A DNA stretch of 47,336 bases from Desulfatitalea alkaliphila. Lineage in GTDB: Bacteria; Desulfobacterota; Desulfobacteria; Desulfobacterales; Desulfosarcinaceae. Of the stretch, positions 31,403 through 37,143 are shown piece by piece. The position numbers were made by a program, and so were the translations under genes. Position 1 is the first letter of the stretch; every line of letters begins with the position of its first letter. The notes beneath the pieces are model-generated. The model was not told the DNA's origin. It saw only the letters and a list, made by a program, of their open reading frames with translations, and searched no databases. The stretch is taken from assembly GCF_022968795.1 (NCBI RefSeq), contig NZ_JALJRB010000035.1, positions 1 to 47,336 on the forward strand, given 5' to 3'.

Positions 31403-32881
31403 TTACAGCCCTTTGGCTGCGTCGGACAGAAAGTGCGGTTGGTTGTCGAAGGGGTCGTGGAACTCCTGGTCCGGCACGAAATCGAGCCCGGCCTCACCTC
31501 TGCCGTTCAAGTATTTTCCCAGCTCCAAGGCCACTTCCAGTCCGGGGTCGAGCCCCGCCCCGGCCAGCAGTTGGCGCAGCAGCCCCTCGGACCTGCCGGC
31601 GAAGGCGATGGCATCGCCCAACACCCGCCCCGCTTCTGCGGGGTTGTGAAAGCCGGTGGAGTTCTCCGCATTGATGAACACCACTCTCAGAAAGGCTTGC
31701 ATGTAGTTGTCCTTGGCCGCCTCGTACAGTTCGGGGGCCACGGCGGCCCCGTCCTGCTGCGCCGCGTGCAGCGTTTCGAAGAGCTTGGCACAGGTGGCCG
31801 TGGCGTATCCGGCCCTGAGGATCAGGGAGGCCGTCCGGTCCTGGGTGTGGTGGATGCGCTCGGTGAGCCACTCCTTGGATTGGGTGTGGCACTGGGCGCA
31901 GGCCCGCAGATCGGCCTTGAGGGGACTGGTCACGTCGTGGTCGGAAATTTTATAGCTGCCTTTGCGGGTGTAGGGCATGTGGCAATCGGCGCAGGCCACG
32001 CCGGCGTTGAAGTGCACGCTGCCCTTGCTGAACAGCTCGAATTCCGGATGGCGGATGAAGGGCATTTTGAAACCGGTGACTTTTTGGGTCCATTCCAGCC
32101 GCGAATAATCCGACAACAGGTCCTCGATGATCCCTTCGATGCTGATGTCGCCCCACTTGCCGTTGCGCCATGGCAAGGTGATGTCGCCGGCCACCTTCAT
32201 CTGTTGGTCCCGGGGGACGGTGTAGGTCACATGGCACTGGGCGCAGGCCAGCATGCGCAGCTCCTGGCGTGACGGGTCTTGCTTGGCGATGGCCAGCAAG
32301 CCGTTTTCCAGGTGGGCCTTCTTGGTGGTCAGCTCCCAGGGATCGGGATTGTGGCAATCGATGCAGGCGGGACCCAACTCCTGCAGCTTTTCGGGCAGCA
32401 TGGCCACTGCTTCGCGGAACGGCTTTTTAAGGTAGCCGTCCAGTCCGTGGGTCTCGGACATTTGTCGGTGGAAGGGGGTTTTGCACCCCAGGCAGACGCC
32501 GCCGGGCGAAACCCGGGAGGGATCGATCTCCAGTTGGTCCGTCACCGCGTAATAATGGCCCCGGGGCTCGTTGTATTCGATGCCGAAGCCCCATCCGTTG
32601 TACAACAGACCCAGGAAGGGAAACTCGCTCAACTTGTCGTAGACGATCAGGTCGTCGTCCCAACCCCGTTTGTATTTGCTCGTGCCGGCCGGTTTGGGTT
32701 CCTTGGTCGCCAACCATGATTCATAGTGCAGCGGGTAGACCTTGCCCCACACTTCGGGATCGTATTCATCGGCTGCGATTTCGCCGGTCGGGAACTGTTG
32801 CGGTTGCGGCGGGGCGCAGCCATACCATAGAAAGAAGACGATCAAGAGACAAGCGGATAGAAACAAAGCTTTCTTCTTCAT
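31403..32881 (-). CDS. nrfA: Cytochrome c nitrite reductase, pentaheme catalytic subunit
   Basis: Periplasmic enzyme of 492 aa reducing nitrite to ammonium with six electrons. Heme sites: the catalytic CxxCK type 'CLGCK' (130-134), and CxxCH at 173-177, 213-217, 287-291 and 318-322. The active-site surroundings 'EPRGHYYAV' and 'MPYTRKGSYKISDHDVTSP' supply the expected Arg, Tyr and His. The N-terminus (MKKKALFLSACLLIVFFLWY, then Gly-Cys at 22) could be a lipoprotein signal, so it may be anchored. AAGGAG precedes the ATG. It follows nrfH by 55 bp. In sulfate reducers this complex serves nitrite detoxification or ammonification. Confidence 0.96.
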   Translation of the reverse strand: MKKKALFLSACLLIVFFLWYGCAPPQPQQFPTGEIAADEYDPEVWGKVYPLHYESWLATKEPKPAGTSKYKRGWDDDLIVYDKLSEFPFLGLLYNGWGFGIEYNEPRGHYYAVTDQLEIDPSRVSPGGVCLGCKTPFHRQMSETHGLDGYLKKPFREAVAMLPEKLQELGPACIDCHNPDPWELTTKKAHLENGLLAIAKQDPSRQELRMLACAQCHVTYTVPRDQQMKVAGDITLPWRNGKWGDISIEGIIEDLLSDYSRLEWTQKVTGFKMPFIRHPEFELFSKGSVHFNAGVACADCHMPYTRKGSYKISDHDVTSPLKADLRACAQCHTQSKEWLTERIHHTQDRTASLILRAGYATATCAKLFETLHAAQQDGAAVAPELYEAAKDNYMQAFLRVVFINAENSTGFHNPAEAGRVLGDAIAFAGRSEGLLRQLLAGAGLDPGLEVALELGKYLNGRGEAGLDFVPDQEFHDPFDNQPHFLSDAAKGL

Positions 32882-32936
32882 GCGTCACGACTCCTTGCGC
32901 TGAAAATGAGACGTTATGTCGGCGACAGGCGCGAGC

Positions 32937-33374
32937 TTAATTGAATATCGCCGCTTTGTGGTTGATACGACGGTGACAGGACCAGCACTCCTGTGCTTCG
33001 GTGTCGATGCGTGACACCACGCCTTCGTGACAGCGGATGCAATTGGCTTTGAGCACCCGCTTGCCGCGATCGGAGAGTTGAATGGGTTCCTCGTAGATGC
33101 CCGAATGGAAGTAGACCAAATCTTTGGTCCCGTCGATGCCCTTCCAAACCAGGTGATTCACGATATTGTCGTGGGGCAGGTGACAGTCGATGCACTTGAT
33201 GGTGCGGTGCACCCCGGTCATGAACCACGCTTCGTGTTGCTCGTTCATGACATGGCAACTGTTGCAGAAATCGGGCGTGGAGGTCAGTTCGATCAGCTTG
33301 GGGGACGCCGCCACGGCCGCGATTCCGAAAACCGCCACCACAACCGCTACGATGACCAATAACTTTTTGCGCAT
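32937..33374 (-). CDS. nrfH: Cytochrome c nitrite reductase, membrane quinol-oxidising subunit
   Basis: NapC/NirT-family tetraheme protein of 145 aa that anchors NrfA and feeds it electrons from menaquinol. One N-terminal TM (MRKKLLVIVAVVVAVFGIAA) precedes four CxxCH sites at 37-41, 61-65, 112-116 and 130-134. The first reads 'CNSCHVM', with the Met that ligates heme 1 in known NrfH. The ATG at 33374 is preferred over the TTG two codons earlier, as GGAACC is better spaced from it. A sigma-70 promoter lies about 75 bp upstream. Confidence 0.95.
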   Translation of the reverse strand: MRKKLLVIVAVVVAVFGIAAVAASPKLIELTSTPDFCNSCHVMNEQHEAWFMTGVHRTIKCIDCHLPHDNIVNHLVWKGIDGTKDLVYFHSGIYEEPIQLSDRGKRVLKANCIRCHEGVVSRIDTEAQECWSCHRRINHKAAIFN

Positions 33375-33446
33375 TGTCAAAAGGTTCCTTGGTAAATCTC
33401 TATTGTGGTTTGGGAGAATATTGCCGTCCGCTGGTGCGTGTTTTCA

Positions 33447-33484: not shown

Positions 33485-34336
33485 TCAATCCTGGCGTACC
33501 TTGATCAGCTGCTCCACCTGTTTGTTTTCCAAAACCCGAAGCAGCTTGGTCTGGGTGGTCAAGGGCATCTCCCCGATCTCGTCGAGGAAGACGGCCCCGC
33601 CGTGGGCGGCTTCAAAGCGCCCCATGCGGTGGCGGTAGGCGCCGGTGAACGCACCTTTGACGTGGCCGAACAGCTCGCTTTCCAGCAGCGCCTCATTGAG
33701 GGCCGCGCAATTGAGCTCTATGAACGGCGCGTCACGCCGCCGGCTGAGTCGGTGCACCGCATGGGCGGCCAACTCCTTGCCGGTGCCGCTTTCACCGTAA
33801 ATAATAACAGGCTCCATGGAGCGTGCCGCCTTTTCGATCAGGGTGTAGACCTGCCGCATGGCCGGCGTCCGGCCGACCATGCCGCAAAAGCGCTCCTCGG
33901 TGGGCAGTCGGCGGGACAGCTCTTCGATTTTACGGTCCCGTTTTTCGATTTCGGACAGATCGATCAATGTTTCCACCGCGCCGATGGTCCGTCCCCCGGC
34001 ATCTTTGAGCAACACCGCGTTCTTCAAGACCGGTACAATGCCGCCATCCTTGCGGATGATCTCGCAACGGATGTGCTCCTTTTTACCACCGGGCGTATCG
34101 AACAGGCGGCACCAGCCATTGCCGTCCTTTTGGCGGATACCCTCGCACGCATCGCACTGCAGGATCGTGCAGCGCCGGCCTATCAATTCCTCGCGGCCAT
34201 ATCCGGTCAAGTCGGCCATCGCCTGATTGACCATCACAATGCGTCCGCGTGGATCGATGATGACCAAGCCGTCGTGCATGGTCTCGACGATTTCCGGCAG
34301 ATATTGATGGTAAGGGCTGATTTTTGATTTTGACAT
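33485..34336 (-). pseudogene. Truncated PAS/sigma-54 activator (enhancer-binding protein) gene
   Basis: A 283-codon gene encoding a PAS domain (about 10-125) with a Cys cluster (C56, C61, C64, C76) and the first half of a sigma-54 AAA+ domain: 'GESGTGKEL' (181-189), 'GAFTGA' (228-233) and 'GAVFLDEIGEMP' (247-258). It stops after 'LLRVLENKQVEQLIKVRQD', where homologs continue for about 200 residues with sensor I, the arginine finger, sensor II and a Fis-type HTH. The 110 bp to nrfH shows no continuation in any frame, so the 3' part appears deleted. The ATG at 34336 has no clear ribosome site. It faces away from the sigma-54 promoter of the cytochrome-rhodanese operon and was probably its regulator. 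It may now be inactive, or make an N-terminal fragment. Confidence 0.8.
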
Positions 34337-34359
34337 GGTGTTTAATCGGGTTGTATGAT

Positions 34360-34396
34360 TTGACACGTCCTTAAACGTTCCGCAAACGGGTGTCAA
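34360..34396. promoter_or_regulatory. Inverted repeat upstream of sigma-54 promoter, possible enhancer site
   Basis: TTGACAC (34360-34366) and GTGTCAA (34390-34396) are perfect inverse copies 30 bp apart centre to centre, about three helical turns, and 71-107 bp upstream of the -24/-12 box. The position suits an activator-binding site; no activator has been matched to it. Confidence 0.4.
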
Positions 34397-34429
34397 GCGC
34401 CTGTGGTTCGTTGTGAGGCCTGCCCGGTG

Positions 34430-34466
34430 CGCCATCGACCGTCTCCCGGCAACATCGTCGATGGCG
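34430..34466. promoter_or_regulatory. 10-bp-arm inverted repeat abutting the sigma-54 promoter
   Basis: CGCCATCGAC (34430-34439) and GTCGATGGCG (34457-34466) are perfect inverse copies with a 17-bp spacer, ending one base before the -24 box. It could be a repressor/IHF-like site or a second activator site; the role is inferred. Confidence 0.45.
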
Positions 34467-34482
34467 TGGCACTTAAATTGCT
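34467..34482 (+). promoter_or_regulatory. Sigma-54 (-24/-12) promoter of the cytochrome-rhodanese operon
   Basis: TGGCAC (34467-34472), five bases, then TTGCT (34478-34482): a full match to the consensus TGGCAC-N5-TTGC[A/T] with the GG and GC correctly spaced. It lies 90 bp upstream of the multiheme cytochrome start, in the divergent region shared with a sigma-54 activator gene. Confidence 0.82.
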
Positions 34483-34571
34483 AATTGAATCCCTTCGCAC
34501 CGCCCTGTACATTTCTAGTCGGTGCGGTGGATCACGTACCCACAAACCCGAGTTCGAAGCGAGGATTGCCC

Positions 34572-35912
34572 ATGAGACGTCACATTGCCGTGAAGGTGTC
34601 CGTACTCATCTGTTTAGTGCTGCTGACGGTGCACCTGGGATGCGTGGAAACCAAACGCCTGACGGAACAGGCCGCCCTGGATTCTTGCGTGGCGTGCCAC
34701 ACCGACTACCATGCCCTTGAAGCCCTGGCCGATCCGGACACCGATCCGCCCGCGGAAGGGTGTGGCGGGGCCGCGCCCCACATCGCCCCCTATGACCGGG
34801 TGTATCTTGGCGGACCGGGCTACGAGGCGTTCAAGAATTCCGAACATGGGCAACTGGCCTGCACCGATTGCCACGGCGGCGTGGACGGCACCGCCGACAA
34901 GCGCAAAGCCCATTCGGAGGATTTCGTCAAGAGTCCCTCGTCGCAGGCCCACGCCGCTTGCGGCGATTGCCATGACGACATCGTGCGCAATGCCGCCGGC
35001 AGTTTGCACGAACAGGGCTGGGGGCAGAAAAACGCCGTGGCGCTGCGCATGGGCGTCGCCGGTTTCGACGCCTTGCCCAACACCATCCAAGCGGCCTACG
35101 GGCAAAGTTGCGCCACCTGTCACGGCGGCTGTGGCGATTGTCACGTCAACCGCCCCAAGGCTTCCGGCGGCGGCCTCTATCGAGGTCACCAGTTCTCCCG
35201 CACACCCGACATGCGCGACAACTGTGTCGCCTGTCACAGCAGCCGCGGCGGGCATGCCTATTTCGGCCTGGGCATCGGCGCAGAACCCGACGTCCACCTG
35301 GTGCAGGCGGGCTTCACCTGTCTCGATTGTCACACCCAGCAGCAAATCCATGGGGACGGAGAGGTTTACGCCCACCGTTTCAAATCGAAGCTGGCACCCG
35401 ATTGCCTGGACTGCCATGCCGGCCTGGAGGGCAGCAACGAATATCACGAAGCCCACCTGGAAGATTTCGCCTGCCATCTGTGTCACTCCCAGGACTACAA
35501 CAACTGCGGCAGCTGTCACGTGGGGGGTGAAGGCGCCCGGATACCGTCCCACTTGAGCTACAAAATCGGGATGAACCCCATTTCCGAGGACCGGCCGTAC
35601 AAGTTCGCCCTGCTGCGCCGGACCCTGGCGGCACCGGACAGCTTCGAGAAGTACGGCGTGCCCCGGATGCCCAACTTTGATGCCAAGACCACCTACAACT
35701 ACACCACCCCCCACAACATTCTGCTGTGGACCGCCCGTACCCGGGTCGAGACAGGCGGCTCCTGCTTCGACAGTTGCCATATCGTGGCCGATGGGGGGGA
35801 TGTCCGCAATCGTGAGCTTTACTTGTTCGCAACGGATTTGAAGGAAAGTTGGGAAAAGAGCGCCAACAAAAACATTGTCGTAGACGGCAAATTGCCCGCC
35901 GGCTGGGAGTAG
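34572..35912 (+). CDS. Multiheme c-type cytochrome lipoprotein (10 canonical hemes plus one CX3CH)
   Basis: Protein of 446 aa with a lipoprotein signal ('LLTVHLGC', lipid Cys 24), exported and then anchored. CxxCH sites start at residues 39, 97, 130, 180, 187, 218, 250, 278, 301 and 312; an eleventh motif, 'CFDSCH' at 398-403, has three residues between the Cys. The C-terminal 130 residues are heme-poor ('SHLSYKIGMNPI', 'MPNFDAKTTYNYTTPHN') and look like a distinct fold. It lacks a CxxCK site, so it is not an NrfA-type reductase. GAGGA precedes the ATG. It is first gene of a sigma-54-driven operon with a tandem rhodanese lipoprotein. It may be related to cytochromes of selenite/tellurite (ext-type) gene sets, from memory and unverified. 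Confidence 0.9.
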   Translation: MRRHIAVKVSVLICLVLLTVHLGCVETKRLTEQAALDSCVACHTDYHALEALADPDTDPPAEGCGGAAPHIAPYDRVYLGGPGYEAFKNSEHGQLACTDCHGGVDGTADKRKAHSEDFVKSPSSQAHAACGDCHDDIVRNAAGSLHEQGWGQKNAVALRMGVAGFDALPNTIQAAYGQSCATCHGGCGDCHVNRPKASGGGLYRGHQFSRTPDMRDNCVACHSSRGGHAYFGLGIGAEPDVHLVQAGFTCLDCHTQQQIHGDGEVYAHRFKSKLAPDCLDCHAGLEGSNEYHEAHLEDFACHLCHSQDYNNCGSCHVGGEGARIPSHLSYKIGMNPISEDRPYKFALLRRTLAAPDSFEKYGVPRMPNFDAKTTYNYTTPHNILLWTARTRVETGGSCFDSCHIVADGGDVRNRELYLFATDLKESWEKSANKNIVVDGKLPAGWE

Positions 35913-35966
35913 GATTTCGGCGGCGCCAACCATACCGGACCCATCACTTCAGTAAAGGAGAACGCC

Positions 35967-36998
35967 ATGTTCCCGACAAAACGACACCGATTCACACTTT
36001 TCGCTATACTGGCCGCCTTGGGGATCTTGTTTTTCACCGGCTGCGCCCACATGGGCCCCAAGACCGAAGCGGTCAACGAAACCGAGCTGTTGGTCGCGTT
36101 CTTCGAAAGCGAACGGGACTACATCCATGAGGGGCCTTCGTTCGTCATGACCGCCCAGGCATTGCGGACCAACCTGCTGACCAAACCGCGGGCGCAGTAC
36201 TTGATCGACATCCGCTCGCCGGAAGCTTTCGCCCGGGGCCACATCCGGGGCTCGGTGCATGTGCCCTTCGATCAACTGTACACCCATATCAAAGGCATCG
36301 ATGCCAAGTCCTACGAAAATATCGTGCTGATCTGCTTTGCCGGCCAGGCGAGCGCCTATGGCGTTTCCCTGCTGCGGGCCGTGGGTTATGAGAACACGGT
36401 CTCCTTGAAGTGGGGTATCAGCTCCTGGGCAGCGGTGTTCGCCCAGGAGTCCTGGCTGCGGAACATCAGCAATGCCCGCGCCGGCGAGTTTATCTCGGAT
36501 CCGTCTCCTCCCAAGAATCCACCCGGCGAGCTGCCACGAATCCATACCGGCAAAACCACCCCCCAGGAAATCATCGAGGCCCGGGTGGCGCGCCTTTTCG
36601 AGGAAGGCTTCGGCCCCGTGATGCTGGGGCAATGCTGCCTGTTCAACGATTTTTACAGCAACGGGGGGTTTTACGTGGTTAACTACTGGCCGCCCGAACT
36701 GTATCAAAATCCGGGCCACACCCAGTGCGCCATCAATTATCCGCCCGGGGAAAAACCCTTTCGCAGCGACACCTACCTCAAGACCTTGTCCACCCGTGTG
36801 CCCAACCTGATTTACTGCTTCACGGGCCAGACCAGCGCTTATATTGCCGGTTACTTGAAGATATTGGGATACGATGCGCGCTCACTGCTTTTCGGTGCCA
36901 ACAGCATGATCTATGACAAGATGAAGGAAGCCGGCGTGGCCAACACTTTTCTTCCTGAAAAGGAGATCATGAACTACGACTACGTGCGGGGCAATTAA
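35967..36998 (+). CDS. Tandem rhodanese-domain lipoprotein
   Basis: Protein of 343 aa with a lipobox ('LFFTGC', Cys 26). The first rhodanese domain (about 58-155) has 'LIDIRSPEAFARGHIRG' and active-site loop 'CFAGQASA' (Cys 123). A second, more divergent one ends with 'CFTGQTSAYIAG' (Cys 284) and 'LLFGANSM'. The two loops share C-F-x-G-Q-x-S-A, so duplication is likely, and both catalytic Cys are kept. Rhodaneses transfer sulfane sulfur or handle selenium/tellurium analogues; here the reaction would be outside the cytoplasmic membrane. AAAGGAG precedes the ATG. It lies 54 bp after the multiheme cytochrome and ends at a strong terminator, so the two form a complete operon. The rhodanese lipoprotein ExtH of Geobacter electron conduits is a possible relative. 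Confidence 0.88.
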   Translation: MFPTKRHRFTLFAILAALGILFFTGCAHMGPKTEAVNETELLVAFFESERDYIHEGPSFVMTAQALRTNLLTKPRAQYLIDIRSPEAFARGHIRGSVHVPFDQLYTHIKGIDAKSYENIVLICFAGQASAYGVSLLRAVGYENTVSLKWGISSWAAVFAQESWLRNISNARAGEFISDPSPPKNPPGELPRIHTGKTTPQEIIEARVARLFEEGFGPVMLGQCCLFNDFYSNGGFYVVNYWPPELYQNPGHTQCAINYPPGEKPFRSDTYLKTLSTRVPNLIYCFTGQTSAYIAGYLKILGYDARSLLFGANSMIYDKMKEAGVANTFLPEKEIMNYDYVRGN

Positions 36999-37026
36999 TT
37001 CACCTGCGCGTCAGGGCACAAAAAAA

Positions 37027-37051
37027 GGGCTATGGAAGAATTCCATAGCCC
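37027..37051. terminator. Bidirectional terminator between rhodanese gene and tRNA-Pro
   Basis: GGGCTATGGAA (37027-37037) pairs perfectly with TTCCATAGCCC (37041-37051) over a 3-nt loop. TTTT follows on the plus strand and six A precede it, giving a T tract on the minus strand, so it can end both the operon and the tRNA transcript. Confidence 0.92.
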
Positions 37052-37064
37052 TTTTGTCATCCAT

Positions 37065-37143
<79 letters not shown>

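Follow-up and report, generated by a model that had tools for sequence, protein, structure and literature searches.

A predicted selenocysteine cytochrome family and its rhodanese partner: the cysteine form in Desulfatitalea alkaliphila

The stretch of Desulfatitalea alkaliphila DNA considered here (contig NZ_JALJRB010000035.1 of assembly GCF_022968795.1, positions 1 to 47,336; hereafter the window, 47,336 nt) contains a two-gene operon that encodes a multiheme c-type cytochrome followed by a tandem rhodanese, both predicted to be lipoproteins (Table 1). Judged by comparison with its relatives, the window cytochrome represents the Cys version of a predicted selenocysteine (Sec) cytochrome family, because its Cys64 aligns with an in-frame UGA codon of homologues, because a stem resembling a selenocysteine insertion sequence (SECIS) follows that UGA, and because SelB is distributed among the genomes in a corresponding way. 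The selenium predicted at the Cys64 column is a point beyond the first-pass annotation, an earlier reading of the window from its letters alone. The cytochrome-rhodanese module itself is well supported by comparative sequence analysis; its substrate and direction are inferred. The chances are about even that the pair would serve as a membrane-anchored, extracytoplasmic chalcogen-relay oxidoreductase in respiration.

Table 1. Features of the operon and its surroundings in the window
Feature	Position	Strand	Remarks
nrfA and nrfH	31403-33380	-	adjoin the truncated activator
Divergent PAS sigma-54 activator, truncated	33485..34435	-	truncated versus the intact 468-aa copy in L033
Sigma-54 (-24/-12) promoter	34467..34482	+	TGGCACTTAAATTGCT; exact match to consensus TGGCAC-N5-TTGCT
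Predicted undecaheme lipoprotein c-type cytochrome (10 CxxCH + 1 CX3CH)	34572..35912	+	446 aa; ATG start at 34572, best-read open reading frame
Cys64 TGT codon, EGCGG motif	34761..34763	+	aligns with in-frame UGA of homologues
Tandem rhodanese lipoprotein	35967..36998	+	343 aa; PF00581 for domain 1, alignment for domain 2
Active-site Cys123 codon, rhodanese domain 1	36333..36335	+	loop CFAGQAS
Active-site Cys284 codon, rhodanese domain 2	36816..36818	+	loop CFTGQTS
15-bp hairpin, probable terminator	37023..37055	+	3' of the rhodanese gene; fold of 37016-37070
tRNA-Pro (ggg)	37067-37143	-

Predicted selenocysteine at the Cys64 column

Relatives of the window cytochrome were collected in two sets, in which individual loci carry L numbers. 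For the phylum set, 395 genomes from the window's phylum (taken to be Desulfobacterota) were searched with the cytochrome at E<=1e-12, and matches were present in 53 of them. Of 58 places outside the window, 53 were fetched, the remaining five being short partial matches; with the window and a sister genome (L033) this gives 55 records, from which L104 and L105, which cover only part of the heme region, were dropped. A scan of GTDB contigs yielded 490 candidate relatives, and the best 80 of these 490, a selection skewed to the window's side of the family, form the GTDB set. The full collection comprises 135 loci, and the two sets may overlap.

Most homologues of the phylum set contain one in-frame TGA, all at a single column, where Cys64 of the window protein (EGCGG) lines up with the U of GEGUGG or GUAG-type motifs. 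In this first set the column holds U in 48 of 53 rows, C in the window and its sister, and Y in L073, with a gap in L064 and L099, both of which are truncated by the contig. When both sets are combined (128 sequences), the counts are U 59, C 67, Y 1 and deleted 1, with the reading frame kept on both sides; Sec or Cys is present in 126/128 homologues. It is likely that automatic annotation splits the UGA forms in two. In the window protein, Cys64 is the sole cysteine of the predicted mature form (signal peptide cut at the lipobox) that is bound neither to lipid nor to heme.

In clade A (29 of the 59 UGA genes), an ungapped SECIS-like stem lies right after the UGA, with columns 15-20 paired to columns 24-29. 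Within this stem 92.5% of the cells are paired, and double changes occur in five of the six pairs. Its covariation is 0.464, versus 0.110 in shuffles and at most 0.207 in slid versions of the stem, with the proviso that the stem was picked after viewing the same sequences and the slid controls therefore lean towards it. The same columns pair 5.55/6 in the clade-A UGA genes versus 2.08/6 in 63 Cys genes. A different stem, pairing at 5 or 6 of 6 positions, is present in 21 clade-B genes, and L189 and L191, which are Cys forms outside the main Cys clade, retain 4 and 6 of 6 pairs, respectively. Folding energy next to the UGA gives a weak signal (mean z of -1.58 for 47 UGA genes of the first set, -1.10 for 10 UGA genes of the second, and -0.99 for 63 Cys genes of the second); unlike folding energy, the covariation is decisive for the SECIS-like stem.

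SelB scores over the cut-off in 9/9 of the UGA genomes tested versus 1/33 genomes of the main Cys clade (L167); it does so in the genome of L189 and not in that of L191. Lower-scoring SelB matches (E<=1e-40) occur in 41/44 genomes, a count to be read with the completeness of the metagenome-assembled genomes (MAGs) not given. In the window genome and its sister, SelB is present despite the Cys form. The tRNA-Sec gene does not discriminate, as 355/395 genomes of the phylum are over its cut-off.

A FastTree tree of 128 of the 135 records, rooted on clade B by choice, leaves out L064, L099, L104, L105, L171, L179 and L180 (truncated there or not of the family). The main Cys clade has a support of 1.0 and contains 66 tips, of which 64 were scored C and two (L128, L169) were left without a score; it is nested among the UGA branches. 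A further Cys pair consists of L189 and L191. The window and its sister group with L114 (named Desulfobacteraceae; support 1.0), and the next to join, with a support of 0.987, are L119 and L121, MAGs named as Ignavibacteriales and Bacteroidetes, in a clade made up mostly of Bacteroidota/Ignavibacteria MAGs. The topology fits one old change from Sec to Cys followed by transfer into the lineage of the window, where both SelB and dsrA are present. The probable source of the window's Cys form is the Bacteroidota side, a direction that depends on the root and could be affected by errors in MAG binning.

Heme sites, ligands and predicted fold of the cytochrome

Recomputation returned the motifs and lipobox that the first-pass annotation had listed. 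The CxxCH motifs start at residues 39, 97, 130, 180, 187, 218, 250, 278, 301 and 312, the CX3CH motif lies at residue 398, and the lipobox is HLG-C24. An 11th heme is likely, since the CX3CH motif lines up in the alignment with an ordinary CxxCH in other branches. The 11 heme motifs are kept in 65 or 66 of the 66 cytochromes aligned, as are nine further histidines (92, 114, 146, 206, 242, 260, 292, 295 and 381), and residue 64 is C or U in 65/66. With nine further conserved histidines for 11 hemes, two hemes would be without a conserved histidine as distal ligand. Besides the start, no methionine is conserved at >=85% in the same 66 sequences.

Matches to known families are slight. Pfam recognizes general heme domains only, with C552 marginal (24.8 bits against 24.1, in a single stretch), and the NCBIfam matches, to ExtM, NrfA and DmsE-type cytochromes, are all far under cut-off. 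The single sequence finds only weak matches in the PDB, and a profile search was needed. A first AlphaFold2 model (32 rows) had a predicted local distance difference test (pLDDT) score of 71 and gave no fold match; a second (66 rows) reached a pLDDT of 87.6 and a predicted template modeling score of 0.81. The best Foldseek match of the cytochrome is 1sp3 (probability 0.90, E 0.023, template modeling score 0.30), and the profile search also finds 1sp3, at E 6e-11, with its best stretch at residues 176-309. This entry, titled octaheme cytochrome c from Shewanella oneidensis in the database, is what we take to be octaheme tetrathionate reductase. By these searches the nearest solved structure is thus octaheme tetrathionate reductase, distantly.

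The octaheme tetrathionate reductase family, TIGR04315, resembles the window family in being nearest to it by fold and profile and in having some UGA forms: in three of eight TIGR04315 proteins read (L196, L199, L200), the segment that separates hemes 1 and 2 contains an in-frame UGA, in the motif NNF-U or NSF-U, where L194 has Cys. However, TIGR04315 proteins have eight hemes, their Sec lies in a different segment, and, unlike in the window family, no rhodanese was found in the ~4.35-kb loci of the eight members. The TIGR04315 model itself did not match any of four members of the window family tried, the window protein among them; a true TIGR04315 member is present elsewhere in genome G000. 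A clear match to a characterised enzyme, which the first-pass annotation had named as a reason to abandon its proposal, was not found in these searches.

The rhodanese and its association with the cytochrome

The rhodanese open reading frame (ORF) starts 54 nt after the cytochrome ORF, and its product has the lipobox FTG-C26. Pfam reports only domain 1 (E 1.1e-18); the second domain was recognized by alignment with two-domain relatives. By sequence, the matches of the protein in the PDB are ordinary rhodaneses. The two active-site cysteines, Cys123 and Cys284, had been noted before and were recomputed here; both are kept in 79/79 aligned tandem rhodaneses (the window's branch plus L055 and L056). 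The rhodanese is tandem in the window's branch and single-domain at some loci of the window's phylum. A paralogue (60%; L032:4774-5802, G000 C13) comes after a radA-like ORF (by eye), with no cytochrome partner within the 16 kb read; the active-site cysteine of its domain 1 is shifted by one residue.

In 53 loci of the phylum set, a same-strand rhodanese ORF lies <=1.5 kb downstream of the cytochrome in 46 (one of them, L094, was scored by its second rhodanese owing to a wrong ORF start) and upstream in one (L092), while the two proteins are fused in three (L073, L099, L103); two loci stop at a contig edge and one (L053) is without a rhodanese. An adjacent or fused rhodanese is thus present at 50/51 testable loci, window and sister included. 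In the GTDB set a rhodanese follows in 74 loci, four end at a contig edge and two have none (L169, L189), which gives 74/76 testable loci. Together, the sets, whose members come from several bacterial phyla, have a rhodanese adjacent (121) or fused (3) at 124/127 testable loci, and the three fusions come from three different families and show both gene orders. The proposal that the pair forms one unit is borne out by these counts; homologues scattered without each other, the pattern that had been named as speaking against it, are not what is seen. L169 lacks the Cys64 segment as well as the rhodanese. The Sec cytochrome of L053 lies directly after a cysteine-desulfurase-like ORF (by eye).

Additional genes accompany the pair elsewhere. 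In a related branch, a multiheme protein of 600-760 aa (six loci; that of L079 was scanned) comes after the rhodanese, and then a second rhodanese. An ORF of ~610-645 aa occurs at eight loci of that branch, and the one scanned (L100) combines heme motifs with a b561-type domain, which suggests that the related operon couples the pair to quinones. A conserved, possible barrel protein of ~420 aa (L127:756-2024 and similar) lies near the pair at 14/80 GTDB loci, and the cytochrome of L189 is followed by a possible barrel protein plus ORFs carrying 12, 6 and 9 heme motifs. The earlier description of a minimal pair without a barrel is too narrow for the family; in the window the operon itself consists of two genes.

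The barrel-like ORFs bear on a different view of the pair, namely that it transfers electrons at the outer membrane or outside the cell, with the cytochrome as a surface lipoprotein that reduces metals or partners and the rhodanese as an accessory sulfur-handling or docking lipoprotein. The lipoboxes on both proteins, the cluster of heme ORFs and barrel-like ORF at L189, and the 14/80 GTDB loci would be in keeping with such a module. However, the barrel assignment is our own reading, the single member scanned having no Pfam match, and an electron-transfer role leaves the conserved Sec/Cys64 and the 79/79 rhodanese cysteines unexplained. We regard this explanation as unlikely.

Comparison with known systems

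In Geobacter, the predicted Sec pentaheme cytochrome ExtKL is clustered with the rhodanese lipoprotein ExtH (extHIJKLMNOPQS), and mutation of extI impairs the reduction of selenite/tellurite (PMC5877670, PMC6148476). ExtKL and ExtH are like the window pair in that a multiheme cytochrome of a predicted Sec family is clustered with a rhodanese-like lipoprotein. However, ExtKL has five hemes, and its Sec is in a C-terminal GH-x-IPDGUPTPNR motif. The kinship with Ext that had been suggested for the window pair is not upheld: the ExtKL model, NF040886, has no match at E<=10 in the window cytochrome and three relatives and no over-cut-off match in genomes G000 or G004; when the window cytochrome family is compared with ExtKL by profile, the alignment spans 23 columns at a single heme motif (probability 35); and the matches of the ExtH model, NF040901, do not include the window rhodanese. 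With the ExtH model a clade-B relative reaches 66 bits, where the cut-off is 200. Membership of the window proteins in ExtKL/ExtH is thus rejected by the family models and the profile comparison. The resemblance looks convergent, and the partnering of two unrelated Sec cytochromes with rhodaneses is suggestive.

A selenite/tellurite reductase analogous to Ext, in which the rhodanese would bind selenium or tellurium adducts, could draw on the ExtKL-ExtH cluster and on the extI phenotype. It is opposed by the family assignments just described and by the Cys forms in genomes with SelB under cut-off (32/33), where a role in Sec supply is unlikely, and we consider it improbable.

Other systems offer partial parallels. 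TsdA forms a covalent adduct of sulfane sulfur with a heme-ligating cysteine and runs in both directions (PMC5146829); TsdA and SoxXA are like the chemistry proposed for the window pair in placing sulfane sulfur on a cysteine at a c-type heme. Unlike the window cytochrome, TsdA has two hemes, and the analogy is one of function only. Dethiobacter alkaliphilus, described in PMC10376724 as a sulfur reducer without canonical sulfur reductases, has SirA/Otr-like clusters that join a multiheme cytochrome to rhodanese proteins, as in the window; its cytochromes, compared here by their description only, are described as octahemes, unlike that of the window.

A 2026 inventory lists 119 prokaryotic selenoprotein families (PMC13188914). 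In the part of it available, only three multiheme/CXXCH families are found, ExtKL, the GSU2204-type outer-membrane barrel and the TIGR04315 octaheme, and its list of 119 contains no family that resembles the window cytochrome by name. None of the NCBIfam models for its unnamed families, NF049953 being one example, matched the four window-family proteins tried. An earlier description of an 11-heme Sec cytochrome with a rhodanese was not found in the literature searched, which covers few subscription papers.

Proposed mechanism

A scheme that would account for both proteins begins with the rhodanese, which would hold sulfane sulfur from polysulfide, thiosulfate or a similar compound, or a selenium analogue, as a persulfide. 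Sec/Cys64, placed beside or on a heme whose distal side has no conserved histidine and whose site would thus be free or labile, would then attack or receive the sulfur, producing a selenosulfide or disulfide adduct. The heme wire would supply electrons, and the adduct would be released as sulfide, selenide or thiol; alternatively, in reverse, the heme wire would gather electrons. The persulfide-type adduct proposed in the first-pass annotation fits the conserved rhodanese cysteines and, in addition, Sec/Cys64, which that annotation had not seen. Adduct, heme contact, substrate and direction are what we infer, with the TsdA adduct as a precedent by analogy.

The reductive direction has a slight edge, since in one branch the pair is coupled to a b-type subunit with a probable link to quinones. 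In an oxidative, TsdA/Sox-like version, sulfide, thiosulfate or persulfide would be oxidised, with the electrons of Sec/Cys64 passing to the hemes and the sulfur to the rhodanese. The anatomy would be the same, and TsdA is bidirectional (PMC5146829); however, the b561-type subunit of the related branch mildly favours reduction, and nothing fixes the direction. Oxidation as the physiological direction appears rather improbable.

Several observations weigh against a chalcogen relay. The fusion protein L073 has Tyr at the Sec position. The cytochromes of L053 (Sec) and L189 (Cys) have no adjacent rhodanese, so the rhodanese is not strictly required in cis. Outside the window's branch, some rhodanese domains are without the active-site cysteine: in other branches (six sequences, read by eye) it is often kept in the second domain only, and neither active-site cysteine seems to be present in the second rhodanese of L083 (also read by eye). 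Tyr309, kept in 65/66 aligned cytochromes, could be one of the missing heme ligands. The likeness to octaheme tetrathionate reductase is partial (residues 176-309), and the E value of the fold match exceeds the threshold normally applied. Lastly, the conserved neighbours that were scanned include no recognised sulfur-compound enzyme, Sox, Sqr and Phs not having been searched for.

A broader form of the chalcogen-relay proposal would make the family a class of respiratory selenoenzyme not described before. In it, the Sec of an undecaheme cytochrome would form a selenosulfide fed by a dedicated extracytoplasmic rhodanese, serving respiration of polysulfide, elemental sulfur or thiosulfate without molybdenum enzymes; a Cys version would be kept by Bacteroidota without SelB and would have been passed to the window's sulfate-reducer-type lineage. 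This is offered tentatively, as a possibility falling somewhat short of even. The pair represents a defined two-protein system that would join selenium, sulfur and a heme wire, for which nature provides Sec and Cys versions for comparison, and it is a testable candidate for molybdenum-free respiration of sulfur compounds.

Operon signals and flanking genes

The promoter upstream of the cytochrome gene is retained in the sister genome as TGGCACCTAAATTGCT. The strict -24/-12 pattern occurs three times in the window (both strands) versus 0.175 times on average in 40 dinucleotide-shuffled versions, and in 8/135 homologous upstream regions versus 0/135 antisense and 0/135 in-gene controls. At 7/8 loci with the pattern, an ORF of the sigma-54-activator type lies within the fetched stretch; such ORFs are present at 35/135 fetched loci, where some are other response regulators.

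Relative to L033:2527-3930, the divergent activator of the window has ~685 bp gone between two homologous blocks, so that its C-terminal portion and some of the AAA domain are missing. The exact -24/-12 promoter persists despite the truncated activator; an assembly error is possible.

The nrfHA genes lie beyond the divergent regulator in both the window and the sister genome. This neighbourhood, together with the weak NrfA-type matches of the cytochrome, could be taken to mean that the pair is a nitrogen-oxide enzyme tied to nrfHA. However, NrfA (tblastn, E<=1e-20) is in the flanks of only 2/135 loci, the window and its sister, many of the fetched flanks being short, and the window cytochrome contains no CxxCK motif; some NrfA proteins use CxxCH. 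A nitrogen-oxide enzyme is therefore highly improbable, and a link to NrfA is rejected as a general feature among the 135 loci.

Downstream, the 55-nt stretch holding the operon hairpin folds at -22.9 kcal/mol. Thus, of the closed two-gene unit described earlier, the exact promoter and the hairpin are there, while a consensus terminator scan did not report the hairpin. Directly after it, on the opposite strand, lies the gene for tRNA-Pro.

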